From NCBI RefSeq assembly GCF_025153525.1, contig NZ_JANZNR010000005.1, positions 186,001-250,000 of the forward strand: DNA of 64,000 nt. Direction: 5' to 3'. The DNA comes from Psychroserpens sp. SPM9. Lineage in GTDB: Bacteria; Bacteroidota; Bacteroidia; Flavobacteriales; Flavobacteriaceae. Under the pieces are notes generated by a model, which saw only the letters and a program-made list of their open reading frames with translations, was not told the origin of the DNA and made no database searches. Below, one piece after another: positions 3,554 through 22,188 of the stretch. Positions within the stretch are counted from its first letter, which is position 1. Every line of letters starts with the position of its first letter. Position numbers and translations under genes: made by a program.

Positions 3554-3597
3554 ATGACAAAAATCATATTTTAAAAGACCTTCATTTTCAACCTTTG
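3554..3597 (+). promoter_or_regulatory. Fnr-type operator plus -7 element before ccoI
   Basis: The operator ATGACAAAAATCAT occupies 3554-3567. A near-consensus Bacteroidota -7 element, AACCTTTG, starts at 3590, which is 29.5 bases from the operator centre. With the -7 element at -12 to -5, the operator centre falls at -41.5, a class II activator position. The predicted start of transcription is near 3602 and the leader is about 21 bases. The same site also lies 38 bases before the divergent fnr-like gene, but no matching -7 element is visible in that direction. Confidence 0.65.
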
Positions 3598-3622
3598 TAA
3601 AAGGTATAAATGAGCAAAAATT

Positions 3623-5998
3623 ATGGAAAAACTAACGTGTTTCCACTGTGGTGATCCTTGTGATTCTACCATAATCACATCTAATGACAAACACTTTTGT
3701 TGCAAAGGTTGCAAGACGGTTTATGAAATTTTTTCAGAACATGATTTAAGCTGTTACTACGATTTGCAAGCTTCGCCAGGTGCAGCTCCTAAAGAGATTC
3801 AGGGGACATACGATTTCTTAACTCAGGCAAATATAATTGAAAAACTTACCGAGTTTAATGACGGAAGCATACAAATCGTCACTTTATATATTCCGCATAT
3901 TCACTGTAGTTCATGTATCTGGATTTTAGAAAACCTCAACAAATTAAATCCGGACATAACCTCCTCTCAAGTAAACTTTGGAAAAAAGACGGTGAGAATC
4001 ACTTATAATTCTGAACAACTATCGCTTAAAGAGGTTGTATTGCTTTTAAGTACTATTGGTTATGAACCTTATATTTCATTAGACGATTATAAAACTGGTC
4101 AGCAAAATGTGAACAGGAGTCTGATTTACAAATTAGGCATTGCTGGTTTTGCCTTCGGAAATGTGATGTTTCTCTCCTTTCCTGAGTATTTTGAAGTTGG
4201 AGAATTCTGGTTAGAACAATACAAGTATTTATTTCGCTGGCTTATGTTTGCCTTCTCAGTTCCCGTTGTGTTTTATGCTGGTCGGGATTATTTTATTTCA
4301 GCTTATAAAGGCTTACGTGCTAAACTTCTCAATATTGATGTTCCTATTGCTTTAGGCATCGCTGTATTATTTATTAGAAGTACTGTTGAAATTAGTTTTG
4401 ATTTAGGTTCAGGCTTTTTTGATAGTCTTACTGGTCTGGTCTTCTTTTTATTACTCGGTAAGTTTTTTCAGCAAAAAACCTATTCATTTTTATCCTTTGA
4501 ACGCGATTACAAATCCTATTTTCCTATTGCAGTTACTACAATTAACTCTGATAATGAAGAAACCGCTACGCAAGTCTATGATATAAAAAAAGGTGATCGA
4601 TTGCTTATTAGAAATGAAGAACTGATTCCTGTAGATGGCATTTTAATTAAAGGAAAAGCGAGAATTGATTACAGCTTTGTAACTGGCGAATCTGAAACCA
4701 TTAGAAAAACTTCTGGAGAAAAGCTCTTTGCTGGCGGAAAGCAAACTTCTGGCGTGATTGAAATGGAAGCTCTAAAATCTGTGGAGCAAAGCTACCTCAC
4801 GCAATTGTGGAGCAATGATGTCTTCAGTAAAAACAAAGAAGATGGTTTTACAACATTAACGAACAAAATCAGTAAACGTTTTACCATTGCTATTTTAAGC
4901 ATCGCTGTCATTGCCACTTTGTATTGGTTATTTACTGATGCTGCTAAAGCCATGAATGTATTTACTGCTGTTTTGATCATTGCTTGTCCTTGTGCCATCG
5001 CATTATCGGCGCCTTTTACCTTCGGGAATTTGCTGCGCATCTTCGGAAAGTTAAAGTTTTATGTCAAAAACGCTTCAGTCATTGAACAATTGGCCAGTAT
5101 AAACACTATAATTTTTGATAAAACCGGAACCATAACCTCCAACAAAAAAAGTAATGCAACTTATGAAGGTATTGCTTTAAATCCTTCCGAAGAAAGTCTG
5201 CTAAAAAACACGCTACGTGGTTCAAATCATCCTTTGAGCAGAACCCTTTACGAGATTCTAGATGCCCATAACATTATTACTCTCAATCATTTTGAAGAAC
5301 ATCTTGGCAAAGGTATTGAAGCAACACATGATAGCAATCATATTAAAATTGGTTCGGCAAGTTTTGTAGGCGCTACAGAAACGCCTGTATTAAATACGAC
5401 TGTTCACGTGAGCACCAATAATCAATATAAAGGAAAATTCACCTTTTACAACAAGTATAGGAAAGGGCTTTCTAAACTATTTAACAGGCTCAAAAAAGAG
5501 TATGATCTGGTTATTCTTTCTGGAGATAATGAAGGTGAACTAGAGAATCTCAAAAAGCTATTACCATCAAAAACTAAATTGATTTTTAATCAGAAACCAA
5601 ACGATAAATTAGAATACATCAAATACCATCAAACCGAAGGCGCCAAGGTGCTTATGATTGGCGACGGACTTAATGATGCTGGTGCTTTAGCGCAAAGTAA
5701 TGTAGGTATTGCGCTTTCTGAAAATGTCAACGTGTTTTCACCCGCTTGCGATGCCATTCTAGACGCCTCAAAATTTAATCAGCTATACGCATTTATAAAG
5801 GCTTCAAAAAGCGCTATAAAAATTATTAAATGGAGTTTTTTACTGTCATTTATTTACAATAGTATCGGACTCTATTTTGCAGTTACTGGGCAATTAGCAC
5901 CTGTGGTTGCTGCTATTCTAATGCCTTTGAGCTCCATTAGTATTGTTGTGTTTACAACCATTGCCACCAATATTATTGGTCGAAAATTGAATGTATAA
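3623..5998 (+). CDS. ccoI: CcoI-type copper-translocating P1B ATPase for cbb3 oxidase assembly
   Basis: A 791-residue heavy-metal P-type ATPase that supplies copper to the cbb3 oxidase. Domains in order: an N-terminal Cys-rich metal-binding segment (CFHCG, then CCKGC at 26-30), a heavy-metal-associated domain with CSSC (95-98), membrane helices, TGES in the actuator, the CPC transport motif (IIACPCAIAL), the phosphorylation loop DKTGT and the hinge GDGLNDAGAL. The extended N-terminus and adjacency to ccoS-ccoNO distinguish it from CopA efflux pumps. It is transcribed toward the oxidase genes from its own predicted Fnr-type promoter. Confidence 0.93.
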   Translation: MEKLTCFHCGDPCDSTIITSNDKHFCCKGCKTVYEIFSEHDLSCYYDLQASPGAAPKEIQGTYDFLTQANIIEKLTEFNDGSIQIVTLYIPHIHCSSCIWILENLNKLNPDITSSQVNFGKKTVRITYNSEQLSLKEVVLLLSTIGYEPYISLDDYKTGQQNVNRSLIYKLGIAGFAFGNVMFLSFPEYFEVGEFWLEQYKYLFRWLMFAFSVPVVFYAGRDYFISAYKGLRAKLLNIDVPIALGIAVLFIRSTVEISFDLGSGFFDSLTGLVFFLLLGKFFQQKTYSFLSFERDYKSYFPIAVTTINSDNEETATQVYDIKKGDRLLIRNEELIPVDGILIKGKARIDYSFVTGESETIRKTSGEKLFAGGKQTSGVIEMEALKSVEQSYLTQLWSNDVFSKNKEDGFTTLTNKISKRFTIAILSIAVIATLYWLFTDAAKAMNVFTAVLIIACPCAIALSAPFTFGNLLRIFGKLKFYVKNASVIEQLASINTIIFDKTGTITSNKKSNATYEGIALNPSEESLLKNTLRGSNHPLSRTLYEILDAHNIITLNHFEEHLGKGIEATHDSNHIKIGSASFVGATETPVLNTTVHVSTNNQYKGKFTFYNKYRKGLSKLFNRLKKEYDLVILSGDNEGELENLKKLLPSKTKLIFNQKPNDKLEYIKYHQTEGAKVLMIGDGLNDAGALAQSNVGIALSENVNVFSPACDAILDASKFNQLYAFIKASKSAIKIIKWSFLLSFIYNSIGLYFAVTGQLAPVVAAILMPLSSISIVVFTTIATNIIGRKLNV

Positions 5999-6014
5999 AA
6001 AATAGTTTCTAAAC

Positions 6015-6058
6015 ATGACTTATATCATGTTTTAAGAATCTATTCAAACGTAATTTTG
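6015..6058 (+). promoter_or_regulatory. Fnr-type operator and -7 element before the ccoS-ccoNO operon
   Basis: The operator ATGACTTATATCAT at 6015-6028 sits within a longer inverted repeat (AACATGA...TCATGTT). An exact TAnnTTTG element, TAATTTTG, spans 6051-6058 and starts 29.5 bases from the operator centre. No TTG -33 element is visible, as expected if an activator bound at -41.5 replaces it. The predicted transcription start is near 6063, giving a leader of about 16 bases to the ccoS ATG. Confidence 0.72.
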
Positions 6059-6078
6059 AACCATAACTTCTAATAGGT

Positions 6079-6264
6079 ATGAGTGTTATATATGTTTTGT
6101 TAAGTATCAGCATTAGTGTCGCTATTGTATTTTTTGTGGCGTTTATAACAGCAGTAAAAAAAGGACAATTTGATGACGGCTATACACCTTCTGTTAGAAT
6201 GCTTTTTGAAGACGAACTTGTTAAAGAGCAACAAAAACCATCTGTTAAAACAAAAAAAGACTAA
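6079..6264 (+). CDS. ccoS: cbb3-type cytochrome oxidase assembly protein CcoS
   Basis: A 61-residue protein with one N-terminal membrane helix (about 3-25), then the CcoS signature region with KKGQFDD and a charged cytoplasmic tail. CcoS is needed for inserting cofactors into CcoN. Length, topology and position (10 bases before ccoNO) all fit. It is the first gene of the oxidase operon. Confidence 0.9.
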   Translation: MSVIYVLLSISISVAIVFFVAFITAVKKGQFDDGYTPSVRMLFEDELVKEQQKPSVKTKKD

Positions 6265-6274
6265 TTAAATTATT

Positions 6275-8464
6275 ATGGAAGTTCAACAGTTTCACTACGA
6301 TAATAAAATCGTTAAAAATTTCCTCTATGCGACCATGTTTTGGGGAGTTGTAGGAATGTTAGTAGGTTTATTACTAGCCTTTATGTTTATTTTCCCAAAT
6401 CTTACAGACGGCATTTCCTGGTTAAGTTTTGGTCGTTTAAGACCTTTACATACAAATGCTGTTATTTTTGCTTTTGTTGGAAATGCCATTTTTGCTGGTG
6501 TATATTACTCATCACAACGGTTGCTTAAAGCCAGAATGTTTAATGATACTTTAAGTAAAATCAATTTTTGGGGCTGGCAACTCATTATCGTTGGTGCTGC
6601 GATAACACTTCCTTTAGGCTATACAACGTCGAAAGAATATGCCGAATTAGAATGGCCTTTTGATATTGCTATTGCTGTAATCTGGGTGGTTTTTGGTTGG
6701 AACTTAATTGGAACGATCCTAAAAAGAAGACAACGTCATTTATATGTTGCAATCTGGTTTTACCTTGCAACATTTGTTACCGTTGCCGTGCTACACATTT
6801 TCAATAGCTTAGCCTTACCTGTTAATGGCATGAAAAGTTACTCGGTTTATGCTGGTGTTCAAGATGCTTTAGTACAATGGTGGTATGGTCATAATGCGGT
6901 TGCATTCTTTTTAACCACGCCTTTTTTAGGCTTGATGTACTATTTTGTACCTAAAGCGGCTAACAGACCAATATATTCTTACAGATTATCAATTGTTCAC
7001 TTCTGGTCTTTAATATTTATTTATATCTGGGCAGGACCTCATCATTTATTATACACAGCACTTCCTGGATGGGCACAAAATCTTGGTGTTGCTTTTTCAG
7101 TTATGCTTTTAATGCCATCTTGGGGAGGAATGATCAACGGACTCCTTACACTGCGTGGCGCATGGGACAAAGTACGTACTGATCCTGTTTTAAAATTTAT
7201 GGTCGTTGCTATTACCGGTTATGGTATGGCAACCTTTGAAGGTCCGATGCTATCTCTAAAAAGCATGAATGCAATGGCGCATTTTACCGATTGGATTATT
7301 GCCCATGTGCATGTAGGTGCATTAGCCTGGAATGGGTTCTTAACCTTTGGAATGATTTATTACCTCGTTCCAAAGTTATTTAAAACCAAATTACATTCTA
7401 CAGGTTTAGCCAATCTTCATTTCTGGGTTGGTACTCTGGGAGTTATCTTCTATGCATTACCAATGTATGTTGCTGGTTTTCAACAATGGGCTATGTGGAA
7501 ACAATTTAATCCAGACGGTACTTTAGTCTACGGAAACTTCCTGGAAACCGTTACTGCAATCATGCCTTTATACTACATGCGTGCTATTGGTGGTTCCTTG
7601 TTTATTATTGGAATGCTCATTATGGTCGTTAATGTAATCCTGACAATTAAAAATGGCAGCAAAGTTTCTGATGAACTAGCTGAAGCTGCAGCACTTAAAC
7701 GGGTTTCTAAAAGACGTGTTGCTGGTGAAGGATGGCATACTTGGTTAGAACGTAAACCTGTTAAATTAACCATTTTTGCAACGATTGCTATTCTTATTGG
7801 TGGTATTGTACAGATTATTCCAACACTCTTGGTAAAATCTAATATCCCAACAATTACAAGTGTAAAACCTTATACGCCTTTAGAACTTGAAGGTAGAGAC
7901 ATTTATATTAGAGAAGGCTGTGTAGGCTGCCACTCGCAAATGGTACGACCGTTTAGAAATGAAGTAGAACGCTATGGCGAATATTCTAAAGCAGGTGAGT
8001 TTGTTTATGATCGTCCGTTTCTCTGGGGAAGCAAACGTACTGGACCTGATTTACATCGTGTTGGTGGAAAATATTCAGACAACTGGCATCTAAACCATAT
8101 GTATGATCCGCAAAGCACCTCATCAGGTTCTATTATGCCAGCCTATCAATGGCTCATAAAAACCAAACTTGATAAATCGCAAACCGAAGCCAAAATGCAA
8201 ACCATGGTATCGCTTGGTGTTCCTTATACCGAAGAAGACATCGCCAATGCACAAAAATCAATGGAAGCGCAAGGTCTTCAAATTGAACAAAACCTGTACA
8301 CCGATCCTGATTTTGTAGAAACTTATGAAGCCGATAAAAAAGCAGCTGGAGACGCATTTGTTGAAATGCGTAACCGTGAAATTGTCGCAATCATAGCGTA
8401 TTTACAACGACTGGGCACCGATATTAAAGTGAAAGATCAAGACCTATCAACAACTCAAAACTAA
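6275..8464 (+). CDS. ccoN: cbb3 cytochrome c oxidase, fused CcoN-CcoO subunit
   Basis: A 729-residue fusion. Residues 1 to about 480 form the multi-helix heme-copper CcoN subunit, with conserved His pairs such as GPHHLLY and HVHVGAL. A new helix near 500 leads into CcoO, with one c-type heme motif CVGCH at 549-553 and a Met in the SIMPAY stretch. The protein reduces oxygen with high affinity and pumps protons in the inner membrane. Other bacteria usually encode CcoN and CcoO separately; fusion is a known Bacteroidota arrangement. No internal stop or frameshift is seen. Confidence 0.95.
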   Translation: MEVQQFHYDNKIVKNFLYATMFWGVVGMLVGLLLAFMFIFPNLTDGISWLSFGRLRPLHTNAVIFAFVGNAIFAGVYYSSQRLLKARMFNDTLSKINFWGWQLIIVGAAITLPLGYTTSKEYAELEWPFDIAIAVIWVVFGWNLIGTILKRRQRHLYVAIWFYLATFVTVAVLHIFNSLALPVNGMKSYSVYAGVQDALVQWWYGHNAVAFFLTTPFLGLMYYFVPKAANRPIYSYRLSIVHFWSLIFIYIWAGPHHLLYTALPGWAQNLGVAFSVMLLMPSWGGMINGLLTLRGAWDKVRTDPVLKFMVVAITGYGMATFEGPMLSLKSMNAMAHFTDWIIAHVHVGALAWNGFLTFGMIYYLVPKLFKTKLHSTGLANLHFWVGTLGVIFYALPMYVAGFQQWAMWKQFNPDGTLVYGNFLETVTAIMPLYYMRAIGGSLFIIGMLIMVVNVILTIKNGSKVSDELAEAAALKRVSKRRVAGEGWHTWLERKPVKLTIFATIAILIGGIVQIIPTLLVKSNIPTITSVKPYTPLELEGRDIYIREGCVGCHSQMVRPFRNEVERYGEYSKAGEFVYDRPFLWGSKRTGPDLHRVGGKYSDNWHLNHMYDPQSTSSGSIMPAYQWLIKTKLDKSQTEAKMQTMVSLGVPYTEEDIANAQKSMEAQGLQIEQNLYTDPDFVETYEADKKAAGDAFVEMRNREIVAIIAYLQRLGTDIKVKDQDLSTTQN

Positions 8465-8470
8465 TTCGTC

Positions 8471-8656
8471 ATGTTAAAATTTGTAAAAAATCATATGGAA
8501 AGCATCACAGGAATAGAAATCTATCCTCTGATTTCTCTAACTATATTTTTCAGTTTTTTCGTCATCTTATTTTGGTGGGTAATTACTGCAAAAAAAGACT
8601 ATATCACCAAGGTGAGTCAGATTCCTTTAGATAACCAAAATCCATCAGAATTATGA
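8471..8656 (+). CDS. ccoQ: CcoQ-like small cbb3 oxidase subunit
   Basis: A 61-residue protein with a single membrane helix (about 17-40, rich in Phe and Trp) and a short polar tail. Its size, topology and position between ccoNO and ccoP fit subunit IV (CcoQ), which stabilises the oxidase complex. Sequence conservation in this family is low, so context carries the call. Its stop overlaps the ccoP start (ATGA at 8653-8656), indicating translational coupling. Confidence 0.8.
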   Translation: MLKFVKNHMESITGIEIYPLISLTIFFSFFVILFWWVITAKKDYITKVSQIPLDNQNPSEL

Positions 8657-9603
8657 GACATATACCATCATGGATACGAGTACCTCTTGTATTCTTTATA
8701 ATTTTCGGACTCACAGAATACGTCATCGATTCTGGTAATGAACCTGCGTTTATAGCAGAACCACTGGTATCGTTATTTTTGTTACTTGTATTTCTAATAC
8801 TCGTCGCTATTGAGGGCATCGTTGGTGCTTTAGATAATGTACTATATCAAAGTTTAGATGCTGAAGCAAAAGCACGATATGACGCTAAAAAACAAGCACC
8901 TTCTAAGTTGATAACCTGGTTTAAAACTCAATACAAAAAATCATTAGGTCAAAAACCTCTTGAAGAAGAACATGATATCATTCTCGATCACAATTACGAT
9001 GGGATACGTGAATTAGATAACGATTTACCACCATGGTGGTTATATGGGTTCTATGCTTCCATCATTTTTGCAGCTGTGTATTTAGTTAAATATCATGTCT
9101 TTAATGGAGACACACAGTTTGACGAATTAGAAGCCGATATCGCACAAGCTAAAATTGATATTGAAGCCTACAAAAAGACCGCAAAAGACTTAGTCGATTT
9201 TAATACAGTAACCATTTTAACTGAAGCTTCAGATTTAGCGAACGGAAAATCCATTTTCGAAACCAATTGTATCGCTTGTCATAAAGCTGATGGTGGCGGC
9301 GGAATTGGTCCGAACCTAACCGACAACTATTGGGTGTTAGGTGGTGGTATTAAAAATGTATTTAAAACCATTTCTGAAGGTGGTCGTGATGGTAAAGGTA
9401 TGATTGCTTGGAAACAAAGTTTAAAACCATCCGAAATCGCTCAAGTAGCAAGCTATGTTTTAAATTTTGAAGGTACCACTCCTGCCGAACCTAAAGCTCC
9501 AGAAGGAGATCTGTGGGTTAGTGAAGAAGCACCAGTTGAAGACATTACTACTGAAGCCATTGAAACTAAAACAGATTCTGTTAGTACCATAGAAGAACAC
9601 TAA
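8653..9603 (+). CDS. ccoP: cbb3 cytochrome c oxidase subunit III (CcoP), single heme c
   Basis: A 316-residue membrane-bound cytochrome c. Two hydrophobic helices lie near the N-terminus (about 7-25 and 35-58) and a third at about 133-152 (WWLYGFYASIIF). A single cytochrome c domain follows, with CIACH at 206-210, GIGPNLTDNYW and a likely axial Met in GKGMIAW. Proteobacterial CcoP carries two CXXCH motifs; only one is present here. The last 40 residues are acidic and low-complexity. It passes electrons to CcoNO. Confidence 0.92.
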   Translation: MRHIPSWIRVPLVFFIIFGLTEYVIDSGNEPAFIAEPLVSLFLLLVFLILVAIEGIVGALDNVLYQSLDAEAKARYDAKKQAPSKLITWFKTQYKKSLGQKPLEEEHDIILDHNYDGIRELDNDLPPWWLYGFYASIIFAAVYLVKYHVFNGDTQFDELEADIAQAKIDIEAYKKTAKDLVDFNTVTILTEASDLANGKSIFETNCIACHKADGGGGIGPNLTDNYWVLGGGIKNVFKTISEGGRDGKGMIAWKQSLKPSEIAQVASYVLNFEGTTPAEPKAPEGDLWVSEEAPVEDITTEAIETKTDSVSTIEEH

Positions 9604-9605
9604 AA

Positions 9606-11030
9606 ATGGAAACACCCAACAACGAAAGTTTTAGAGATACCATCGGGACACTTACCGATGACGGAAAACGCGCTTGGGTGTATCCTAAAAAACCAAGTGG
9701 TCGGTATTACGAGAAGCGTAAAATTGTAAGTTATAGTCTCCTCATATTTTTATTTGCTGCGCCGTTTATTAAAATTAACGGGAATCAGTTTCTGCTCTTT
9801 AATGTTTTAGAGCGTCGCTTTAATATTTTCGGCTTTCCGTTTTGGCCACAAGACTTTTACTTATTTGTTATTTCAATGCTTATAGGTGTGGTTTTTGTCA
9901 CCTTATTCACCGTGGGTTTTGGTCGGATTTTCTGCGGATGGATTTGCCCTCAAACTATTTTCATGGAAATGGTCTTCCGAAGAATAGAATACTGGATTGA
10001 TGGCGATAGAAATAAACAACGAAAACTAGACAAACAACCATGGAATGCTGAAAAAATCAGAAAGCGACTGCTCAAATGGTTTGTATTTTTAGTGATTTCA
10101 TTTCTTATCGCTAATGTGTTTTTAGCCTACTTAATTGGGAGCGACAAACTCTTAAACTATATAATCGACGGTCCCTTTAAACATTTAGGAACCTTGTTTC
10201 CACTCATTATTTTTACAGCAGTCTTCTATTTCGTATTTGCCTGGTTTAGAGAACAAGTGTGCATTATTGCTTGTCCGTATGGTCGATTACAAGGCGTATT
10301 ACTCGATAACAAATCTATTGTAGTGGCTTACGATCACAAACGTGGTGAAGGCGATAATGGTCGAAAAAAATTCAGAAAAAATGAAGATCGTCAAGCTCTC
10401 GGACATGGAGATTGCATCGATTGCTTCCAATGTGTTCATGTATGTCCTACAGGTATTGATATTAGAAATGGAACACAATTAGAATGTGTCAACTGTACAG
10501 CGTGCATTGACGAATGTGACCATATTATGGAGAGTATTAATCTTCCTAAAGGCTTGATTCGCTATGCTAGTGAAGATAATATCGAACAAAAAAAGAAATT
10601 TGAATTTACACCAAGGTTAAAAGGATATACAGCAGTGTTGGTTATCTTAATCGGACTCTTATCTGGACTTCTAATGCTTAGAAATGATGTTGAAGCCAGA
10701 ATTCTTAGATTACCTGGTCAATTATATGAAAAGAAAGGAGAGGACATTATCAGCAATGTATTTACTTATAAATTGATTAATAAAACTACTGATACGATAT
10801 CTGATGTTAGTTTCAAATTGCGCCATTATAAAGGCGTTATAAAACTGGTATCGACATCAGAAAAATTTATGGTGCCAGCACAAGGTTTAGCAGAAGGCAC
10901 ACTATTTATTGAAATAGATAAAAAAGAACTTAAAGGTGATAAAAACAAGCTTTTAATTGAAGTATATAATAACAATGAATTGATTGAAACCACAACGGTT
11001 AATTTTTTAGGACCGAGAAGTTATAATTGA
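9606..11030 (+). CDS. ccoG: CcoG cytochrome c oxidase accessory ferredoxin-like protein
   Basis: A 474-residue membrane protein of the CcoG/RdxA/FixG family. Membrane helices lie in the first 220 residues, with the Cys motifs CGWICPQ and CIIACPYGR. Two 4Fe-4S motifs follow (CIDCFQCVHVCPTG and CVNCTACIDECD), then another helix and an Ig-like periplasmic domain. CcoG reduces Cu(II) for cbb3 assembly. It starts two bases after ccoP. The gap after it (205 bases) is unusually long for this operon and holds a hairpin-rich element. Confidence 0.94.
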   Translation: METPNNESFRDTIGTLTDDGKRAWVYPKKPSGRYYEKRKIVSYSLLIFLFAAPFIKINGNQFLLFNVLERRFNIFGFPFWPQDFYLFVISMLIGVVFVTLFTVGFGRIFCGWICPQTIFMEMVFRRIEYWIDGDRNKQRKLDKQPWNAEKIRKRLLKWFVFLVISFLIANVFLAYLIGSDKLLNYIIDGPFKHLGTLFPLIIFTAVFYFVFAWFREQVCIIACPYGRLQGVLLDNKSIVVAYDHKRGEGDNGRKKFRKNEDRQALGHGDCIDCFQCVHVCPTGIDIRNGTQLECVNCTACIDECDHIMESINLPKGLIRYASEDNIEQKKKFEFTPRLKGYTAVLVILIGLLSGLLMLRNDVEARILRLPGQLYEKKGEDIISNVFTYKLINKTTDTISDVSFKLRHYKGVIKLVSTSEKFMVPAQGLAEGTLFIEIDKKELKGDKNKLLIEVYNNNELIETTTVNFLGPRSYN

Positions 11031-11061
11031 TACCAATTGAGCATAAAAAGACAATCGCATT

Positions 11062-11217
11062 AAGGATTGAAACGGCATCCTTTTTATTTGAGGGCTGAGC
11101 GCAGTCGAAGACAGCCAATAAAAAGATACAGTAGAAAGCCTGACCCTTTTGATGGGAATGAGAAAGGGTAATGCACAACAAATTATTAATAATGAGATCC
11201 TGAAACAAGTTCAGGAT
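11062..11217. repeat. Hairpin-rich intergenic repeat element inside the cco operon
   Basis: Four consecutive inverted repeats fill this gap. They are AAGGAT/ATCCTT (11062-11067 with 11077-11082); TTTTTATT plus GGCTG paired with CAGCC plus AATAAAAA (11081-11124); ACCCTTT/AAAGGGT (11143-11149 with 11163-11169); and ATCCTGAA/TTCAGGAT (11197-11204 with 11210-11217). The words GAGCGCAGTCGAAG and ATCCTGAAACAAGTTCAG are, from memory, recurrent in flavobacterial noncoding DNA; I could not search. The short frames crossing it are not genes. It may be a dispersed repeat or a structured RNA segment between ccoG and ccoH. Confidence 0.65.
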
Positions 11218-11235
11218 GACCAAATAAATAAGGAT

Positions 11236-11682
11236 ATGAAATTAAATTGGGGAACAGGAATCGTACTCGCATTTATAGGCTTTATCAGTTTTATCTTGTA
11301 CTTCGTAGTACACATGAATACAACTAAAAAGTACGATACGTCATTAGTGACTGAAAACTATTACAAAGCCGAATTAGAATATCAAAATGATATTGATAAA
11401 GAAACGAATGCTAAAAATTTAGTGTCAAATATTTCGTGGAAACGCTCCGATACAGGCTTAGAAATCACGTTTCCTTTATCAATGAACGAAAAAGACATCA
11501 CTGGAAAAGTGTTCCTATATAGACCATCTAATGAACATGTAGACTTTGAAACTGCAATTTCATTGTCTCACCACACTTTGCTCATACCTGACAAACGTTT
11601 ATTGGATGGTCGTTGGAACATCAAAGTCGATTGGCAATATAAAGGAAAATCATATCTCTACAAAAAGGAAATCGTTTACTAA
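11236..11682 (+). CDS. ccoH: CcoH/FixH-family protein
   Basis: A 148-residue protein with one N-terminal membrane helix (about 6-27) and a periplasmic beta-rich domain, the FixH/CcoH layout. FixH/CcoH helps assemble cbb3 oxidase alongside the CcoI pump. I place the start at the ATG of MKLNWG (11236). A longer frame from 11149 would translate the intergenic hairpin element into a hydrophilic N-terminus and put the helix too far in. The stop overlaps the next gene's start by one base. Confidence 0.85.
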   Translation: MKLNWGTGIVLAFIGFISFILYFVVHMNTTKKYDTSLVTENYYKAELEYQNDIDKETNAKNLVSNISWKRSDTGLEITFPLSMNEKDITGKVFLYRPSNEHVDFETAISLSHHTLLIPDKRLLDGRWNIKVDWQYKGKSYLYKKEIVY

Positions 11683-12386
11683 TGATGCTTTGGTCTGCAC
11701 TCATATTTGGTCTTTTAGGAAGTTTTCACTGCATCGGAATGTGCGGTCCTATTGCTTTTATGTTACCTGTAGACAGAACTAATTCTATAAAAAAAGGTGT
11801 TCAGATTTTCTCTTATCACTTCGGAAGGCTTCTTGCTTATGGACTCATCGGACTCGTATTTGGTTTGATTGGTAAAGGGTTATATCTCTTTGGAGTACAA
11901 CAACAGTTATCTATAGTTATAGGGATTATAATGATTGCTGTTGTTTATATTCCAACTCCAACTTTTAATGCCTACAACTTTTCCAAGCCTTTATATCGAA
12001 TCATTTCAAAAGTAAAGTCATCATTGGGAAACGCTTTAAAAAAGAAAACAGTTGACACCTTTTTAACCATAGGATTTTTAAATGGGTTTTTACCTTGCGG
12101 ATTAGTATATATGGCTGTTTTTGCTTCTTTAGCCATGCAAAATGCGGTTCAAGGAAGCTTATATATGCTATTGTTTGGTTTGGGAACTATACCATTAATG
12201 ACCACAGCGATTTACTTGGGTAGGTTTTTAAATTCTGGCATTAAACAACGCATTCAAAAAGCAATTCCTGTATTTGTTATCATCATAGGAGTCTTATTCA
12301 TTATTCGTGGTTTAGGGTTAGGGATTCCATACTTGTCACCTGCTCCTTTTACAAATGTGGTTTCTAGTACAATGGAATGTCATTGA
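11682..12386 (+). CDS. SafE/TauE-type membrane protein of the cco cluster
   Basis: A 234-residue membrane protein with about six helices. It opens with GLLGSFHCIGMCGPIAF, the Cys motif of the DsbD-like/SafE family that accompanies ccoGHI in many bacteria (often called CcoI-associated or CycZ-like). A second Cys motif, GFLPCGLVYMA, starts the other half. The two conserved Cys-containing repeats suggest metal or thiol transport for oxidase assembly. It is the last gene of the oxidase operon; its stop codon touches the operator of the next unit. Confidence 0.82.
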   Translation: MMLWSALIFGLLGSFHCIGMCGPIAFMLPVDRTNSIKKGVQIFSYHFGRLLAYGLIGLVFGLIGKGLYLFGVQQQLSIVIGIIMIAVVYIPTPTFNAYNFSKPLYRIISKVKSSLGNALKKKTVDTFLTIGFLNGFLPCGLVYMAVFASLAMQNAVQGSLYMLLFGLGTIPLMTTAIYLGRFLNSGIKQRIQKAIPVFVIIIGVLFIIRGLGLGIPYLSPAPFTNVVSSTMECH

Positions 12387-12429
12387 TGACTTATATCATA
12401 GTTTTTCAGAAACATAATTAGTAATTTAC
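12386..12429 (+). promoter_or_regulatory. Fnr-type operator and -7 element before the usp operon
   Basis: The operator ATGACTTATATCAT at 12386-12399 is identical to the ccoS operator. A degenerate -7 element, TAATTTAC, begins at 12422, again 29.5 bases from the operator centre. The predicted transcription start is near 12434 and the leader is about 15 bases. The operator begins on the last base of the preceding stop codon, so it starts a separate transcript right behind the cco operon. Confidence 0.65.
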
Positions 12430-12448
12430 TGTTCTAAATTAGAAAACG

Positions 12449-13246
12449 ATGAAAAACATTCTACTTCTTACAGATTTTTCTGATAACGCGTTTAATGCGA
12501 TACGTTATGCGGTACAGTTTTTTAAATCAGAAAGTTGTAATTTTTACCTCATGCATGTATGTAAAGTCAAATCTTTTATCTCTGATGATTTGATGCTTTC
12601 GTCTCAAGACAGTATTTATGACTCTATAATTGTAGAACCTAAAGACAAACTCAGTCAACTTATAAAAGAACTAAAAGAAGAATTTACTAATAGAGAGCTT
12701 CGTATAGAAACTATTATTGATTTTGATCTCTTTACTGATGCTATTAACCAAGTCATCAGCACAAAAGATATTGACCTTGTGGTGATGGGGAGTAATGGCA
12801 TTACTGGAGCTAGCGAAATTATTTTTGGTTCTAATACAGCTAATGTCATCAGAAAAGTAAAATGTAAGACATTAATTATTCCTGAAGGCTATCGTTTTAA
12901 AAGTGTAAAGGAGGTATTGTTTCCTATAACATCTGATGATGACCTAACGGAAAGCACATTAGAAGACATCGTTACCTTTATTAATTCATATAAACTGCAT
13001 ACTCATATCTTACAACTTAATTCGCATAACAATCTGGCTGAAACCATAATGTCTAAACTACCTGATAGTGATTTCAAAACCATAAATGATGTCCCTTTCG
13101 AACATGCAATTTCTAGTTATCTCCAGACTAACACTATCGATTTAACCCTATTTTTAGAACATTCAAAAACTTTTTTAGAACGGATATTTAAGGCTTCACC
13201 TGCAAAAAATATCGCCAATCCTTTATTAATTTTTCATACTTATTAA
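12449..13246 (+). CDS. Universal stress protein (UspA family)
   Basis: A 265-residue cytoplasmic protein. The first half is a recognisable Usp domain: LLLTDFSDNAFNA at the start and the nucleotide-loop-like VVMGSNGITGASEIIFGSNT at about 110-130. The second half is a degenerate Usp copy without the glycine loop. Tandem-Usp proteins of this length are common in Bacteroidota. The predicted Fnr-type promoter and the location behind the cbb3 genes suggest a role in low-oxygen stress, which is inference. Confidence 0.88.
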   Translation: MKNILLLTDFSDNAFNAIRYAVQFFKSESCNFYLMHVCKVKSFISDDLMLSSQDSIYDSIIVEPKDKLSQLIKELKEEFTNRELRIETIIDFDLFTDAINQVISTKDIDLVVMGSNGITGASEIIFGSNTANVIRKVKCKTLIIPEGYRFKSVKEVLFPITSDDDLTESTLEDIVTFINSYKLHTHILQLNSHNNLAETIMSKLPDSDFKTINDVPFEHAISSYLQTNTIDLTLFLEHSKTFLERIFKASPAKNIANPLLIFHTY

Positions 13247-13272
13247 TTCGAATCATAAAACATAACAAACAC

Positions 13273-13722: not shown

Positions 13723-13737
13723 TTTTAAAAATCCAGG

Positions 13738-14439
13738 ATGAGTATACATATCGAAGCCCAAAAAGGAGACATTGCCCAAACTGTTTTATTACCAGGAGAT
13801 CCCATGAGAGCCAAATGGATTGCAGAAACCTTTTTAGAGGATTCAAAACAATATAATGATGTTAGAGGTATGTTAGGTTTTACCGGTACTTATAAAGGGA
13901 AACGTGTTTCTGTTCAGGGCACAGGCATGGGCATTCCATCCTGTCTAATTTACTGTCATGAACTCATCAATGATTATGGCGTTAAAAACTTAATTCGGGT
14001 TGGTTCTGCTGGATCTTACCATAAAAACATCAAACTTAGAGACATCGTAATTGCAATGTCTGCATCGTCAACTTCTGGCATAAATAATTCGCGGTTTATA
14101 AATGCCGATTATGCTCCAACAGCAAATTTTGATTTGTTTATGAAAGCAGCTACATACGCTAAGGAAAATCAAATTCCTATCAAAGCTGGAAACGTTTTAT
14201 CATCTGATGAATTCTACGAAGACCACTATGATTCCTATAAAAAATGGGCCGAATTTGGCGTGCTATGTGTAGAAATGGAAACTGCTGGGCTTTATACCAT
14301 AGCTGCAAAACACAATGTAAAAGCATTATCGATTTTAACAATTTCAGATTCTTTGGTTACCAAAAAAACCACATCCTCTAGTGAAAGAGAGTCCTCTTTT
14401 AACACCATGATAGAAATCGCTCTAAACACCTCAGATTAA
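13738..14439 (+). CDS. deoD: Purine-nucleoside phosphorylase, DeoD type
   Basis: A 233-residue enzyme that splits purine (deoxy)ribonucleosides with phosphate for purine salvage. Family signatures are clear: the N-terminal His4 region (MSIHIEA), LPGDPMRAKWIA for phosphate binding, GTGMGIPS, IRVGSAGS, the VEMETAGLY nucleoside-binding stretch and LTISDS with the catalytic Asp. Length matches hexameric bacterial DeoD. It is the last gene of the usp operon, followed by a hairpin terminator. Confidence 0.93.
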   Translation: MSIHIEAQKGDIAQTVLLPGDPMRAKWIAETFLEDSKQYNDVRGMLGFTGTYKGKRVSVQGTGMGIPSCLIYCHELINDYGVKNLIRVGSAGSYHKNIKLRDIVIAMSASSTSGINNSRFINADYAPTANFDLFMKAATYAKENQIPIKAGNVLSSDEFYEDHYDSYKKWAEFGVLCVEMETAGLYTIAAKHNVKALSILTISDSLVTKKTTSSSERESSFNTMIEIALNTSD

Positions 14440-14464
14440 AACAACAATCATTTCATTTTGAATC

Positions 14465-14495
14465 ACAAGGATCAGTAAAGTGATGCCTTGTTTTT
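14465..14495 (+). terminator. Intrinsic terminator after deoD
   Basis: ACAAGG-ATCA pairs with TGAT-(G)-CCTTGT across a GTAAAG loop with one bulged G. A run of five T follows. It lies 26 bases after the deoD stop on the same strand. Confidence 0.7.
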
Positions 14496-14559
14496 AACTT
14501 TTAAAACTTACATCCAATAGTTAGTTTTAGTATCTTTAAAGCAACTAATCAAAATCAAA

Positions 14560-17500: not shown

Positions 17501-17778
17501 AGTTTTTAGGGAAACAAGATAAACGTCAAGGCATCACTAGAAGTCCGGAAGTCACCATAACACAACGCTTAAGACAAGCCAGAGGCTATGTTGGTTCGAG
17601 ACAAAACGGAATTACATCTACTGAAACGACACTAATTAAAAACGCCCAAGATGCGCTTGAAAATGCACTTGATGAAGTCAATCGTTTCTATAGTGAAATC
17701 TGGGCGCCTTACCGCTCAAGAATGGAACAGGTACAAGCCAGTCCGTTTAAAGATATAAAAACTTTCAAATTAAATTAA
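14560..17778 (+). CDS. Secreted BNR/VPS10-like beta-propeller protein
   Basis: A 1072-residue exported protein. The first 19 residues form a signal peptide ending near LMLFAQD. Residues about 35-740 contain many BNR/sortilin-type repeats with the Asp-box pattern (for example SLDGGKSW, TTDGGKTW, THDGGATW, SDDGGFSW, TRDGGKSW), indicating one or two beta-propellers. A Lys/Glu-rich linker follows at about 785-820, then a helical C-terminal region. Proteins of this type in flavobacteria are annotated as glycosyl-hydrolase-like or VPS10-domain proteins; no catalytic residues can be assigned. A secreted S9 peptidase lies 21 bases downstream, suggesting one operon. Confidence 0.8.
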   Translation: MKKSLSLMLFLASLMLFAQDISLDVLKNMKPRNIGPGGMSGRVTAIDVVHKNTDIMYVGTASGGLWKSESAGITWTPIFDNQVTASIGAVAIQQSNPSVIWVGTGEGNPRNSLNGGYGIFKSLDGGKSWMSMGLENTRHIHRVVIDPTNPDIVYVGAIGSPWGEHPERGVFKTTDGGKTWKNILFANNKTGVADLIMDPSNPNKLIAAMWEHKREPWFFNSGGKGSALHITHDGGATWKKITDKEGFPEGDLGRIGVAIAPNKPNIVYALVEAKKNALYKSDDGGFSWNMINNKNDIGNRPFYYSEIYVDPQNENRVFSIYTYVNVSEDGGKNFSQLMPAYGVDNGVHPDHHAWWIHPNDGSFMIDGNDGGLNITRDGGKSWRFIGNLPVAQFYHINVDNEIPYNVYGGMQDNGSWRGPAYVWRDQGIRNSYWQEISFGDGFDVVPDKDDSRYGWSMSQQGAVSRYDWQTGNNYSVKPTHPDPDVKLRFNWNSAINIDPFNNSTIYFGSQFVHKSTDKGDTWTVISPDLTTNDPEKQKQSESGGLTMDATGAENHTTILVIEPSPLEQNMLWVGTDDGKVHYTTNGGDSWTDVTKNIKGLPAGSWIAQIKASNKTKGEALLIANDYRRFNYTPYAYRTVDYGKTWTRIVDAQDVESYTLAIIEDPEEKNLMFLGTDDGLYISFDAGNKWTKWTNGFPTVSVKDLVIHPREQDLIIGTFGRAAWVLDDIRPLRALAKNKQLINNKLELFEPPTAYQAAYQQPTGSRFGADAMYHGQNRAYGAQLAYFVKIDAEKKASESKKTKKKEEEAKPDTSEAKEAKVTWDSLHLKIYDGERLIRTLKRKAPDTTGLYKWTWFMDEAGVDFPSRRTRTRRNEPGGVSVKPGMYKAVLSFGDQTSEEMIKVASDPRLNVSMANINQTYDSYKQLEHMQQTAADAIKQLVESKDIAKDYQSLLSKLDKKKYKEDIKASKEVIKNIDSIIDKFLGKQDKRQGITRSPEVTITQRLRQARGYVGSRQNGITSTETTLIKNAQDALENALDEVNRFYSEIWAPYRSRMEQVQASPFKDIKTFKLN

Positions 17779-17799
17779 CAACACAAAAAAACGAACATT

Positions 17800-19755
17800 A
17801 TGAAACTAAAACTCTTAGGATTTTGCCTGGTAATTTTGATGTTTTCCTGTAAAGAGGACACCAAAGACAAAGCTATGGCAGAGCGCGAAATTCAACATTA
17901 TACCATTGAACAATTTATGGACAATGAAGCTGTAGGTGGTGGGAGCTTTTCTGCAGATAATAGTCAAGTACTGGTATCCAGTAACCGATCGGGAATTTAC
18001 AACGTTTACACGATACCTGTGGAAGGTGGAGAAATGACAGCGGTTACGCAATCTGATAGTACGTCTATTTTTGCCGAATCCTATTTTCCAAATGATAATC
18101 GCATGTTATTAAGTGCCGATGGAAATGGTGACGAGATTGACCATCTCTTTGTTAGAGAACTTGACGGAACCATAAAAGATATCACTCCAGAAAAAGGAGC
18201 CAAATCTAATTTTTATGGATGGTCTGAGGATGACAACTATTTATACTTTGGATCTAATAAACGAAACCCCAAATATTTCGACATCTATAAAATGTCTATC
18301 GATGATTATACTTCGGAAATGATTTATCAGGATGATACTGGACTCAGTTTTTCGGGCATGTCTGATGATGAAAACTATTTTGCGTTATCAAAAAACTTAA
18401 ACACTAACGATACGGACTTGTTTCTTTACAATGTCAATACCAAAGAGAAAATTAAAATAAACGATAATCAAAGTGGTAATTCTGCTGAAGACTTTTCTAA
18501 AGATCATAGCACCTTTTATTACACCACTGATGACGGTTCAGAATTTGCTTATTTAATGGCTTATGATTTAGCTACCAAAGAAAAGAAAAAAGTCGCCGAG
18601 AAATCCTGGGATATTATGGGAAGTGGCTTCACCTCTCAAGGTTCGTACCTGGTTATCTATGTTAATGAAGATGGAAAAAATGTTATTGAAGTCTTAGATT
18701 CCCAAAGCATGTCTCCTATTGATTTACCAGATTTTGGAGACAAAAGCATCACCAGTGTTAGTTTTAGTGATGACGAAAAATGGATGCGCATGTATGTTGG
18801 AGGCTCTAATGCGCCTTCAGATTTATACACCTATAATTTAGAAACCAAAGCGCAGCACAAACTTACCAATGTGCTTAACAGTGCTATAAACGCCGAAGAT
18901 TTAGTAACCGCTAAAGTGGTGCGTTATAAGTCTTTTGATGGCACAGTGATTCCTGCAATTTATTACGTACCACATCAAGCTTCAAAAGACCATAAAGTTC
19001 CGGCTATGGTTTGGGTACATGGTGGTCCTGGAGGACAAACACGTCAAGGGTTTAGCTCTTTAATTCAATATATGGTTAATCATGGTTATGCCGTTTTAGC
19101 AGTCAATAATCGTGGAAGTAGTGGCTACGGAAAAACGTTTTATCAAATGGATGATTTAAACCATGGAGAGAAAGATCTACAAGATTGTGTAGAAGGAAAA
19201 AACTGGTTAGCAACACAACCAGAAATTGATGGCGATAAAATTGGTATTATTGGAGGCTCCTATGGTGGTTACATGACTATGGCTGCATTAACCTATACAC
19301 CTGAAGAATTTGACGTAGGTGTCAACATTTATGGAGTTACCAATTGGATTCGGACATTAAAAAGCATTCCACCGTATTGGGAATCGTTTAGAGAATCGTT
19401 GTATTTAGAATTAGGTGATCCTTACTCTGCTGATTCCACACGTTTAAAACGTATTTCACCATTATTTCATACCGATAAAGTGACCAAACCTTTAATTGTT
19501 TTACAAGGTGCTCAAGACCCAAGAGTACTGCAGGTAGAGAGTGATGAAATCGTTGCTGGCGTTAGAAAAAACAATGTTCCGGTAGAATATGTGTTATTTG
19601 AAGATGAAGGTCATGGTTTTATAAAAAAGGAGAACCAGATTGAAGCTTATAGCCGTATTTTGAAATTCTTAGACACACATCTTAAAAAAGAAAAAGCACC
19701 TGTAGATGGTGAAACAGAAAGCACCGAAATTGAAGTCGAAGACGCGACCAAATAA
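17800..19755 (+). CDS. Prolyl oligopeptidase family (S9) lipoprotein peptidase
   Basis: A 651-residue serine peptidase. The start is a lipoprotein signal (LMFSCKED, Cys17), so the enzyme is probably membrane-anchored outside the cytoplasm. Residues about 40-370 form a WD/TolB-like propeller. The C-terminal alpha/beta-hydrolase domain has the oxyanion region HGGPGG, the nucleophile motif GGSYGGY, an acid in QGAQDPRV and the His in DEGHGF. It would cleave short peptides. A Glu-rich tail ends the protein. The next gene is convergent, separated by a strong bidirectional hairpin. Confidence 0.92.
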   Translation: MKLKLLGFCLVILMFSCKEDTKDKAMAEREIQHYTIEQFMDNEAVGGGSFSADNSQVLVSSNRSGIYNVYTIPVEGGEMTAVTQSDSTSIFAESYFPNDNRMLLSADGNGDEIDHLFVRELDGTIKDITPEKGAKSNFYGWSEDDNYLYFGSNKRNPKYFDIYKMSIDDYTSEMIYQDDTGLSFSGMSDDENYFALSKNLNTNDTDLFLYNVNTKEKIKINDNQSGNSAEDFSKDHSTFYYTTDDGSEFAYLMAYDLATKEKKKVAEKSWDIMGSGFTSQGSYLVIYVNEDGKNVIEVLDSQSMSPIDLPDFGDKSITSVSFSDDEKWMRMYVGGSNAPSDLYTYNLETKAQHKLTNVLNSAINAEDLVTAKVVRYKSFDGTVIPAIYYVPHQASKDHKVPAMVWVHGGPGGQTRQGFSSLIQYMVNHGYAVLAVNNRGSSGYGKTFYQMDDLNHGEKDLQDCVEGKNWLATQPEIDGDKIGIIGGSYGGYMTMAALTYTPEEFDVGVNIYGVTNWIRTLKSIPPYWESFRESLYLELGDPYSADSTRLKRISPLFHTDKVTKPLIVLQGAQDPRVLQVESDEIVAGVRKNNVPVEYVLFEDEGHGFIKKENQIEAYSRILKFLDTHLKKEKAPVDGETESTEIEVEDATK

Positions 19756-19780
19756 AATACTGTAACCAACATATTCATAA

Positions 19781-19809
19781 AAAAGCTTGAGCAAATTGCT
19801 CAAGCTTTT
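19781..19809. terminator. Bidirectional terminator between S9 peptidase and usp2
   Basis: AAAAGCTTGAGC pairs with GCTCAAGCTTTT around an AAATT centre. Flanking T-rich sequence on the + strand (CTTCTTT) and A-rich sequence on the left make it work in either direction. It lies between two convergent genes. Confidence 0.85.
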
Positions 19810-19855
19810 CTTCTTTAGTCTCTAATAAATAACGAACTAATAACGAACAAAAGAA

Positions 19856-20677
19856 CTAAATTTTAAATGTAATGACTGGAAGTGTGGCATGATTTGCGAC
19901 ATCTTCAGAAATACTACCTGTAAAAAAATGTGCTAAGCCTTTTCGTCCATGTGTTGGTACAGCAATCAAATCGGCACCTAACAGATTAGAAGCATTTAAA
20001 ATGCCTTTTTCTACCGTATAGTCTGAAGTATAATGCACATCATTTAGCTTATCTAAATTTCCATCAGCAGTCTGTAAAAAATCAGCAACAGTAGCTTCCA
20101 TTTCGGCTGAACTCTTAAAACTTTCACCTGGAACATTCACATGAATTAATTTAATATGATCAAATAACTGTCGAGCTTTTAAATAAGGTGCCACCATTTC
20201 TTTAGAAAAATCGCTGGCAAAAGTAACCGTTTCAAAATCTATTTTTGAGGGTTTCTGTTTGACTACTAAGACTGGAATTTCAGAAGAACGTACAACTTTC
20301 TCTGTGTTTGATCCTACAAATATTTCAGATAAACCACTTGTCCCATGAGAGCCCATAACAATCAAATCGGCTTGGTGTTCTTCAGCAACTTCGGCAACTT
20401 CACTAAACACTTTAAAGTGTTTTACAATGGGTGTAATGCTAATGCCCTCAAGAAAATCTTTATTTAAAAATGATTCAAATTTTTGTTCAGCTAATTTTAG
20501 AAAAAACACCATTTTCTCATTGTGTTCATTGCTCGAATCGGTCACACGACCTTTATCGATTTCTAACATGTGTAACACCAATAATTCAGCATTATAGCGT
20601 TGTGCCATTAATGCAGCGGTTTCCAATGCATATTCTGAATATTTAGAAAAATCTACAGGTACTATTATCTTATTCAT
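19856..20677 (-). CDS. Universal stress protein, two Usp domains
   Basis: A 273-residue protein with two Usp domains. The first opens with IIVPVDFSKYSEYALE and has the nucleotide loop VMGSHGTSGLSEIFVGSNT. The second ends with AVPTHGRKGLAHFFTGSIS, so both halves keep glycine-loop motifs, unlike the copy at 12449. I start at the ATG of MNKIIVPVDF (20677); the in-frame GTG at 20728 would add 17 residues that are not Usp-like. Its upstream region shows no ATGAC-N4-ATCAT site. It probably binds ATP and acts in stress survival. Confidence 0.9.
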   Translation of the reverse strand: MNKIIVPVDFSKYSEYALETAALMAQRYNAELLVLHMLEIDKGRVTDSSNEHNEKMVFFLKLAEQKFESFLNKDFLEGISITPIVKHFKVFSEVAEVAEEHQADLIVMGSHGTSGLSEIFVGSNTEKVVRSSEIPVLVVKQKPSKIDFETVTFASDFSKEMVAPYLKARQLFDHIKLIHVNVPGESFKSSAEMEATVADFLQTADGNLDKLNDVHYTSDYTVEKGILNASNLLGADLIAVPTHGRKGLAHFFTGSISEDVANHATLPVITFKI

Positions 20678-20762
20678 GATATTATAAGTTTTTGGGTTTG
20701 TTACATTAAATATATAGGTTTTGTTCACCTATAAAACTTTTTAAAATTAATTTAACACTAAG

Positions 20763-22127
20763 TTAAACAGTCATAGAAAACAAAGGTGTATCGGGTTGTT
20801 TTCGTTGCAATAATACATCAAAGGCCATACATACATTTCTAACAAAAGGTTGCCCTTTTGAAGTGATTTTTAAGCTTTCATTGTCGAGGGTTACTAAACC
20901 GTCAATTTCCAATTCTTTTAGACGAGGCAGAACCGTTTGCATAGTCTCTACATAAAGTGATTTATCTGACCAACTGGTTTCAAATTGGCACATTAAATTT
21001 AAAATATGTTGTCTAATGACTAGGTCTTCTGTACTCAAAATATGACCTCTGTTTACCGGAATTACACCTTGATCTACAAGGTCACAATACGCTTCTACAC
21101 CTTTCACATTTTGAGAAAACCCATACCAGCTATCACTAATTGAGGAAACCCCTAAACCTATCATGGTTTGCGTCTTTGACGTCGTATACCCCATGAAATT
21201 ACGATGCAGTTTATGATGTAATTTTGCTTTATATAAGGTATCCGTTTGTAAGGCAAAATGATCCATTCCAACGTCGTGGTATCCCGATTGACAGAGCAAT
21301 TTTTTCCCTAATTCATACTGAGCTCGTTTTGAAGTTCCGCTTGGTAAATCGGAGTCCTTAAAACCACGTTGCCCATTACCTTTAAGCCAAGGTACGTGTG
21401 CGTAACTATAAAAGGCGATTCGATCTGGCATTAATGTTTTTGTGAGTTCTATTGTTTTAGCAACATGTGCTTCGGTTTGAAAAGGTAAACCAAAAATAAT
21501 ATCATGTCCAACAGAGTTATACCCTATGTCTCGGGCTGCTACTGTTGCCTGCTTAACCGTTTCGAAAGGTTGAATGCGATGAATTGCTTTCTGAACGTCT
21601 TCGTTATAATCTTGAACACCAAAACTGACACGTGAAAACCCAAGGTTGTAAAGGGTTTGTAAATGCTGCTGAGTGGTGTTATTTGGATGGCCTTCAAAAC
21701 TAAATTCATAGTCATCGGCTAGTGTCGCACAACTTAAAACACCTTTGATTAGAATTTCCAGATTTTCTGGAGAAAAAAATGTAGGTGTCCCGCCTCCAAT
21801 ATGGAGTTCTTTAATTTTCGGCCTTCCATTTAACAACTCACGATACAAACTCCATTCTTTTAAAACCGCTGCAATATAAGGTGCTTCTACATCGTGACGT
21901 TTGGTGATGCGTTTATTACATCCACAAAACGTACAGAGTTGCTCGCAAAAGGGTAAATGAATGTAAAGGCTAATACCTTCTTTAACATTACTTTCGTCAA
22001 AAGAAACTTTGACTGAAGTCTTCCAGTTTTCAAGTGAAAATGATGACGTATCCCAATACGGAACCGTTGGATAACTTGTATAACGCGGTCCTGCCACATT
22101 ATACTTTTGGACTAATGAATTGCACAT
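20763..22127 (-). CDS. hemN: Oxygen-independent coproporphyrinogen III oxidase HemN
   Basis: A 454-residue radical-SAM enzyme that converts coproporphyrinogen III to protoporphyrinogen IX without oxygen. The cluster motif CEQLCTFCGC gives Cys61, Cys65 and Cys68 (CX3CX2C, plus the HemN-typical extra Cys70). ELHIGGGTPTFF and SFGVQDYN follow, and a winged C-terminal HemN domain is present. The N-terminal NVAGPRYTSYPT is the HemN signature that separates it from HemW. A predicted Fnr-type promoter sits directly upstream, so it would be induced when oxygen is low. Confidence 0.95.
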   Translation of the reverse strand: MCNSLVQKYNVAGPRYTSYPTVPYWDTSSFSLENWKTSVKVSFDESNVKEGISLYIHLPFCEQLCTFCGCNKRITKRHDVEAPYIAAVLKEWSLYRELLNGRPKIKELHIGGGTPTFFSPENLEILIKGVLSCATLADDYEFSFEGHPNNTTQQHLQTLYNLGFSRVSFGVQDYNEDVQKAIHRIQPFETVKQATVAARDIGYNSVGHDIIFGLPFQTEAHVAKTIELTKTLMPDRIAFYSYAHVPWLKGNGQRGFKDSDLPSGTSKRAQYELGKKLLCQSGYHDVGMDHFALQTDTLYKAKLHHKLHRNFMGYTTSKTQTMIGLGVSSISDSWYGFSQNVKGVEAYCDLVDQGVIPVNRGHILSTEDLVIRQHILNLMCQFETSWSDKSLYVETMQTVLPRLKELEIDGLVTLDNESLKITSKGQPFVRNVCMAFDVLLQRKQPDTPLFSMTV

Positions 22128-22144
22128 ACCTTAACAATTTGACT

Positions 22145-22188
22145 CAAAGTTACTGGCATTAAGCAGTATAAAATATGATAAATGTCAT
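22145..22188 (-). promoter_or_regulatory. Fnr-type operator and -7 element before hemN
   Basis: Read toward hemN, the operator ATGACATTTATCAT occupies 22188-22175. An exact TAnnTTTG element, TAACTTTG, occupies 22152-22145. Its first base is 29.5 from the operator centre, the same spacing as at ccoI, ccoS and usp. The predicted transcription start is near 22140, leaving a leader of about 13 bases. Confidence 0.72.

Follow-up and report, generated by a model that had tools for sequence, protein, structure and literature searches.

We report here on four promoters in a 64-kb window of Psychroserpens sp. SPM9, i.e., the whole stretch of DNA analysed (35% GC, from a 3.81-Mb assembly). In this window, the motif ATGAC-N4-ATCAT has only four exact matches (3554+, 6015+, 12386+ and 22175−), located ahead of ccoI, ccoS, a universal stress protein gene (usp) and hemN, and the first of them lies in the gap between ccoI and the gene of an Fnr-type regulator. 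We consider it likely that these sites are class II low-oxygen operators of a variant FNR-like activator: a dimer of the Fnr-type protein would bind ATGAY-N4-RTCAT centred at −41.5 and would help the sigma-A polymerase to initiate at low oxygen, thereby raising the cbb3 oxidase together with its copper pump, the oxygen-independent route to heme and the stress proteins, while oxygen would probably be sensed through an iron-sulfur cluster on Cys 4, 7, 53 and 106. The class II reading follows from a spacing peak at 22 nucleotides (nt), an excess of 577 spaced matches over a single control match, site counts linked to the presence of the regulator, the conservation of the fnr-ccoI gap and a set of recurrent targets. 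The predicted regulon is spread through the Flavobacteriaceae.

The proposed operator and its spacing

At all four window sites, the 14-mer is followed, after exactly 22 nt, by a −7-like octamer, which confirms the distance of 29.5 nt between site centre and first octamer base given in the original prediction. The fixed −7 positions are matched at 5/6 for ccoI (AACCTTTG), 6/6 for ccoS (TAATTTTG), 4/6 for usp (TAATTTAC) and 6/6 for hemN (TAACTTTG), for a window background of 6.9% (at least four matches), 1.1% (at least five) and 0.06% (six); the usp octamer is thus a weak −7 element, which qualifies the observation. The genome holds 15 exact sites in total, and at the other 11 only 0–3 of the six −7 positions are matched at the same distance. 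According to PMC9723704, the sigma-A −7 box of F. psychrophilum, TAnnTTTG, spans −12 to −5, so that the window sites would be centred at −41.5. They thus combine a position near −41.5 with a fixed distance from a sigma-A element, as in class II promoters, with transcription starts predicted from sequence.

All motif counts were compared with those of the same motif reversed. In this genome, a relaxed composite of site and −7 element yields six sites versus none reversed, namely the four window sites and two others; one of the latter (−7 at 4/6) precedes a protein resembling the Thioredoxin_9 targets described below, and the other (C1:33116) precedes a 134-aa protein for which family model searches found no family and which, on visual inspection, looks like a truncated hemoglobin. 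When the spacing is left free between 8 and 36 nt, the 149 genomes of the family (taken as Flavobacteriaceae from named relatives) return 199 matches versus 20 reversed. Among the 150 of these 199 that were listed, 22 nt accounts for 108, 21 nt for 8 and 23 nt for 5, the next best count being 8; the predicted class II geometry therefore dominates family-wide too. With the spacing fixed, ATGAY-N4-RTCAT-N22-TAnnTTTG reaches its 577 matches (1 reversed) in 118/149 genomes. In a comparison extending beyond the family, the composite was present in 14/15 genomes of the same family and in 13/133 others; the 133 hold 24 matches versus 1 reversed, with eight coming from two genomes that belong to the same order, and the reach of the operator may extend slightly beyond Flavobacteriaceae. 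Finally, the same asymmetric orientation is indeed shared by the four window sites, but a fixed ATGAC..ATCAT asymmetry had to be rejected as a general rule: among 150 listed of the 577 matches, the outer bases are mixed (C/A 30, T/G 31, T/A 55, C/G 34).

The fnr-ccoI gap was followed through 80 named loci (the best 80 of 584) and through an earlier set of 53 loci, which probably overlaps them in part. CcoI adjoins the fnr-type gene divergently in 79/80 named loci. The gap contains a perfect palindrome in 50/80, always (50/50) with a −7 element 22 nt away that matches at 5/6 or 6/6; by raw count, 23 of the remaining 30 carry an imperfect candidate at this spacing, mostly with a CTGAY upstream half. 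In the 53-locus set, 33 palindromes were found, 31 of them with the −7 element at 22 nt. The ccoI outer bases are C/A in 44/50 perfect palindromes, a predominance that may be due to shared ancestry. In 74 of the 80 loci, retained for matching at least 8/10 site positions and at least 4/6 −7 positions (the conservation is thus partly by choice), TCAT is invariant, TGA and the A and TTTG of the −7 element are nearly so, and mid-spacer conservation drops to ~0.1 bit; the promoter-near half-site is stricter than the upstream half. The first −7 base is a T in only 1/74 loci, which suggests a weak ccoI promoter that would depend on an activator.

To characterize the targets, the first open reading frame (ORF) was read behind 148 sites with spacing 22 (108 exact sites, other classes from further loci and 13 hand-picked TTGA/GTGA sites), 141 of which had one. 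HemN, CcoS and Usp were identified from their resemblance to the window proteins, and the other families through one Pfam-tested representative each. Behind the exact sites (104 with an ORF), HemN occurs 14 times, Usp 11, the Thioredoxin_9 type 11, CcoS 9, a small cytochrome c 6, Pta 6 and the S30AE type 3, for a total of 60/104 in recurrent families. The full set of 141 ORFs gives 71 (HemN 14, Thioredoxin_9 type 13, CcoS 12, small cytochrome c 11, Usp 11, Pta 6, S30AE type 4). CcoI was seen only twice, because its −7 element mostly lacks the first T demanded by the strict pattern. Low-oxygen genes (HemN, CcoS) are thus among the recurrent families in relatives, as had been proposed for the window, and cbb3 oxidase and heme genes are up in F. 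psychrophilum under oxygen limitation (PMC9723704). Moreover, a protein of ~600 aa recurs behind the operator (L133, L195; three in one cluster), the 598-aa L133 being without any Pfam or NCBIfam match. In G129 and L174, the operator stands directly before the fnr-type gene in the same direction, an arrangement that suggests autoregulation.

Other outer-base classes were seen at the same 22-nt spacing. GTGAC-N4-GTCAC sites (L084, L218-L222, L230 and others) probably belong to another Crp/Fnr paralog, and four sites of this class (one of them GTGAC-N4-ATCAC) precede what, judged by eye, seem to be persulfide dioxygenases. A third class, TTGA (e.g., TTGATATAGGTCAA), appears in G033, where it makes up 7 of 13 rows, as well as in L096 and L223-L229. 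At G000:C11:587853-587894 (L322), TAAATTGC stands 22 nt behind the operator and conforms to TAnnTTGY, the SM5-type −7 of F. psychrophilum, rather than to the sigma-A box.

The Fnr-type protein and its signal

The Fnr-type protein, 100% identical (rounded) to that of Psychroserpens algicola, belongs to the Crp/Fnr superfamily by its cyclic nucleoside monophosphate (cNMP)-binding-type beta-roll followed by a Crp-type helix-turn-helix (HTH). It scores 95.9 bits against the NCBIfam Fnr model, for a cut-off of 228. FNR, which is active in the absence of oxygen, binds TTGAT-N4-ATCAA and holds its [4Fe-4S] cluster with C20, C23, C29 and C122. The sites studied here read ATGAY-N4-RTCAT, and in an alignment to A. 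fischeri FNR, C20, C23 and C122 correspond to Cys 4, 7 and 106, while C29 corresponds to Asn 13 (Asn or Ser in the 80 named orthologs). The Fnr-type protein, which would bind these sites, is one that would work like FNR yet fits neither its cysteine pattern nor its operator, and we therefore place it among the Crp/Fnr proteins as a new form distinct from FNR.

Cys 4, 7, 53 and 106 are invariant in 53/53 and 80/80 orthologs, while Cys 29 and 59 vary, which makes Cys 53 a candidate replacement ligand. In the predicted model (mean predicted local distance difference test score 86.9), Cys 53 and 106 both sit mid-strand (strands 50-56 and 103-109) and, judging from the strand limits, would lie side by side if these strands pair antiparallel. 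It is plausible that Cys 4, 7, 53 and 106 together hold an iron-sulfur cluster. Alternatively, the Fnr-type protein could activate in response to thiol redox, a small molecule or nitric oxide instead of oxygen. This is in line with the loss of the FNR Cys29, with the beta-roll matching the cNMP-binding family, with 2gau ranking ahead of FNR as a structure match and with one target that resembles NorC (below cut-off, named by eye); yet it would leave aside the invariance of the four cysteines in 80/80 orthologs, three of which align with FNR ligands, and the low-oxygen genes among the recurrent targets. We regard such a signal as rather unlikely, even if it deserves to be kept in mind.

In the recognition helix (FNR numbering), Thr208 is found in 78/80 orthologs and Glu209, Ile212 and Arg213 in 80/80; the replacement of Ser212 by Ile, already pointed out for the window protein, also holds in 53/53 orthologs of the first set. 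Ile212 alone was ruled out as the recognition code, as there are Ile212 paralogs with other residues at 208. Another Crp/Fnr paralog (L231, L264-L266) has the helix TTEEQVIR or alike, with an N-terminal Cys-pair stretch in 3/4 cases.

Site numbers and a possible second reader

Fnr-type orthologs, defined by a cut at ≥42% identity, occur in 91 of the 149 family genomes. A second candidate reader is a receiver-cNMP-HTH protein of 350 aa (domains from one protein), hereafter receiver-Crp, present in 65/149 genomes (at E 1e-70, scoring no more than 14 candidates in any genome), including 30 of the 58 devoid of the Fnr-type protein. Genomes with both regulators have a mean of 7.57 sites (sites in 35/35), those with the Fnr-type protein alone 3.23 (50/56), those with receiver-Crp alone 3.90 (28/30) and those with neither 0.50 (5/28). 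The order is the same in genomes of at least 2.5 Mb, where the last class has a mean of 0.36 (sites in 3/11). The claim that the adjacent Fnr-type protein activates the four promoters thus gains ground as to the reader, with site counts that track its presence and a conserved fnr-ccoI site, while the recognition code based on Ile212 proved too simple.

Eighteen hand-chosen receiver-Crp loci were fetched. In 18/18, receiver-Crp adjoins a kinase gene of one cluster, and Usp genes are near in 16/18. The one kinase examined has PAS, HisKA and HATPase domains, its PAS domain resembling those of DosP and FixL; a candidate heme His was recognised by eye in the kinase PAS of 17/18 loci, such a His being no proof of heme. 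The receiver-Crp helix keeps E209, I212, R213 and mostly T208, and in receiver-Crp-only genomes, 9 of the 17 ORFs listed fall into ccoS (2), Usp (3), cytochrome c (2) and, judged by eye, S30AE types (2). One might then argue that the operator belongs to receiver-Crp under a FixL-like kinase and that the Fnr-type protein reads it partly or not at all. The frequency of receiver-Crp, its neighbouring PAS kinase, its largely shared recognition helix and the sites in 28/30 receiver-Crp-only genomes would all fit, but the search at E 1e-70 did not find it in this genome, where four sites are present, and sites occur in 50/56 Fnr-type-only genomes and within the fnr-ccoI gap itself; we hold this explanation to be improbable. 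The favoured reading is that two sensors would share one operator in the family: the single reader initially assumed would hold here, whereas in relatives receiver-Crp seems to read the same operator. In its complete form, this proposal remains tentative, and on balance it may well be wrong in some part: ATGAY-N4-RTCAT at −41.5 would be read by two interchangeable oxygen sensors, one an FNR-like protein with a cluster on Cys 4, 7, 53 and 106, in which a beta-roll Cys replaces C29, the other a fusion resembling FixJ-FixK and driven by a FixL-like kinase, Thr208 and Ile212 together setting the change from TTGA to ATGA.

Several points weigh against the class II low-oxygen reading. Genome-wide, the bare motif shows no enrichment (15 matches versus 13 reversed in the assembly), and the composite with up to three mismatches, which is too loose, barely exceeds its control in this genome (121 versus 98). 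The −7 element is not at 22 nt in 2/33 palindromes of the 53-locus set, and 44/104 exact-site ORFs fall outside the recurrent families. Five of the 28 regulator-free genomes have sites (three of them, G048, G147 and G051, being 82%, 73% and 88% complete) and 8/121 regulator-bearing genomes have none. The site-count statistics ignore shared ancestry, which makes the p values too small; this also applies to a Poisson model that takes genome size into account and yields rate ratios of 2.26 and 2.61. Moreover, FNR's third N-terminal Cys is absent in the window protein and its orthologs, so that cluster sensing is not assured, and binding and activation in this organism are predictions from sequence. 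The two genome-wide counts would suit chance, i.e., four look-alike sites picked post hoc, but the ratio of 577 to 1, the 22-nt peak and the orthologous promoters contradict this explanation, which we consider extremely improbable. The enrichment by which the regulon was to be recognised thus failed to appear for the bare motif and appeared for the spaced composite.

Window features and known systems

The genes and promoter elements of the window are collected in Table 1.

Table 1. Genes, operators and −7 elements of the window.
Feature	Position	Strand	Remarks
Fnr-type regulator, 225 aa	2839..3516	-	cNMP-binding-type beta-roll + Crp-type HTH; helix GTATESAIR; Cys 4, 7, 53, 106 among others
Operator ATGACAAAAATCAT, ccoI promoter, fnr-ccoI gap	3554..3567	+	Exact match; same site and spacing in relatives
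−7 element AACCTTTG, predicted start ~3602	3590..3597	+	First T absent, also in relatives
ccoI, copper P-type ATPase	3623..5998	+	E1-E2_ATPase, HMA, ATPase-cat_bd
Operator ATGACTTATATCAT before ccoS-ccoNO operon	6015..6028	+	Exact match
−7 element TAATTTTG, predicted start ~6063	6051..6058	+	Spacing 22
ccoS	6079..6264	+	FixS
ccoN-ccoO fusion	6275..8464	+	COX1 + FixO
61-aa ORF at ccoQ position	8471-8656		Without Pfam match; named by position only
ccoP	8653..9603	+	FixP_N, cytochrome c
ccoG	9606..11030	+	Fer4_18, FixG_C
CcoH	11149-11682		Named by position only
DsbD_2 family membrane protein	11682..12386	+	Domain match
Operator ATGACTTATATCAT before usp	12386..12399	+	Exact match; shares last base of preceding stop codon
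Weak −7 element TAATTTAC (4/6), predicted start ~12434	12422..12429	+	Spacing 22
Universal stress protein (usp)	12449..13246	+	Usp
Universal stress protein behind hemN	19856..20728	-	Usp models, below their cut-offs
hemN, oxygen-independent coproporphyrinogen III oxidase	20763..22127	-	TIGR00538 above cut-off
−7 element TAACTTTG, predicted start ~22140	22145..22152	-	Spacing 22
Operator ATGACATTTATCAT before hemN	22175..22188	-	Exact match

In soil and water, the Flavobacteriaceae are one of the major groups. The listings of our text searches, which covered open-licence papers, showed no low-oxygen regulon, operator or regulator native to this family. A 2021 study (PMC8510549) linked a Crp/Fnr homolog of Flavobacteriales to carbon sensing via a Bacteroides MalR matrix. 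With an operator that is fixed and countable, the regulon can be traced in many genomes from their sequences. The altered cysteines, in turn, offer a new form in which an oxygen sensor studied for a long time can be tested.

Among known systems, the FixL-FixJ-FixK cascade of rhizobia likewise combines a PAS kinase, a receiver and a Crp-type output with some cbb3-related targets, as does receiver-Crp with its kinase (one examined); in the latter, receiver and Crp output are fused in a single protein, which is missing from the search results for this genome. Among solved structures, the Porphyromonas gingivalis Crp/Fnr protein 2gau comes closest to the Fnr-type protein by both sequence and fold, and the two share 30% identity in the structural alignment. 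Class II Crp/Fnr-dependent promoters have their site centred at −41.5, as predicted here, where the site is ATGAY-N4-RTCAT and is combined with a Bacteroidota −7 element. Finally, compared to FNR (E. coli; A. fischeri 5e44), the Fnr-type protein has a shorter N-terminus, a score below the NCBIfam cut-off, Asn or Ser instead of C29, an invariant Cys 53, Ile for Ser212 and Thr for Val208, and its presumed operator has A for T at the outer base.

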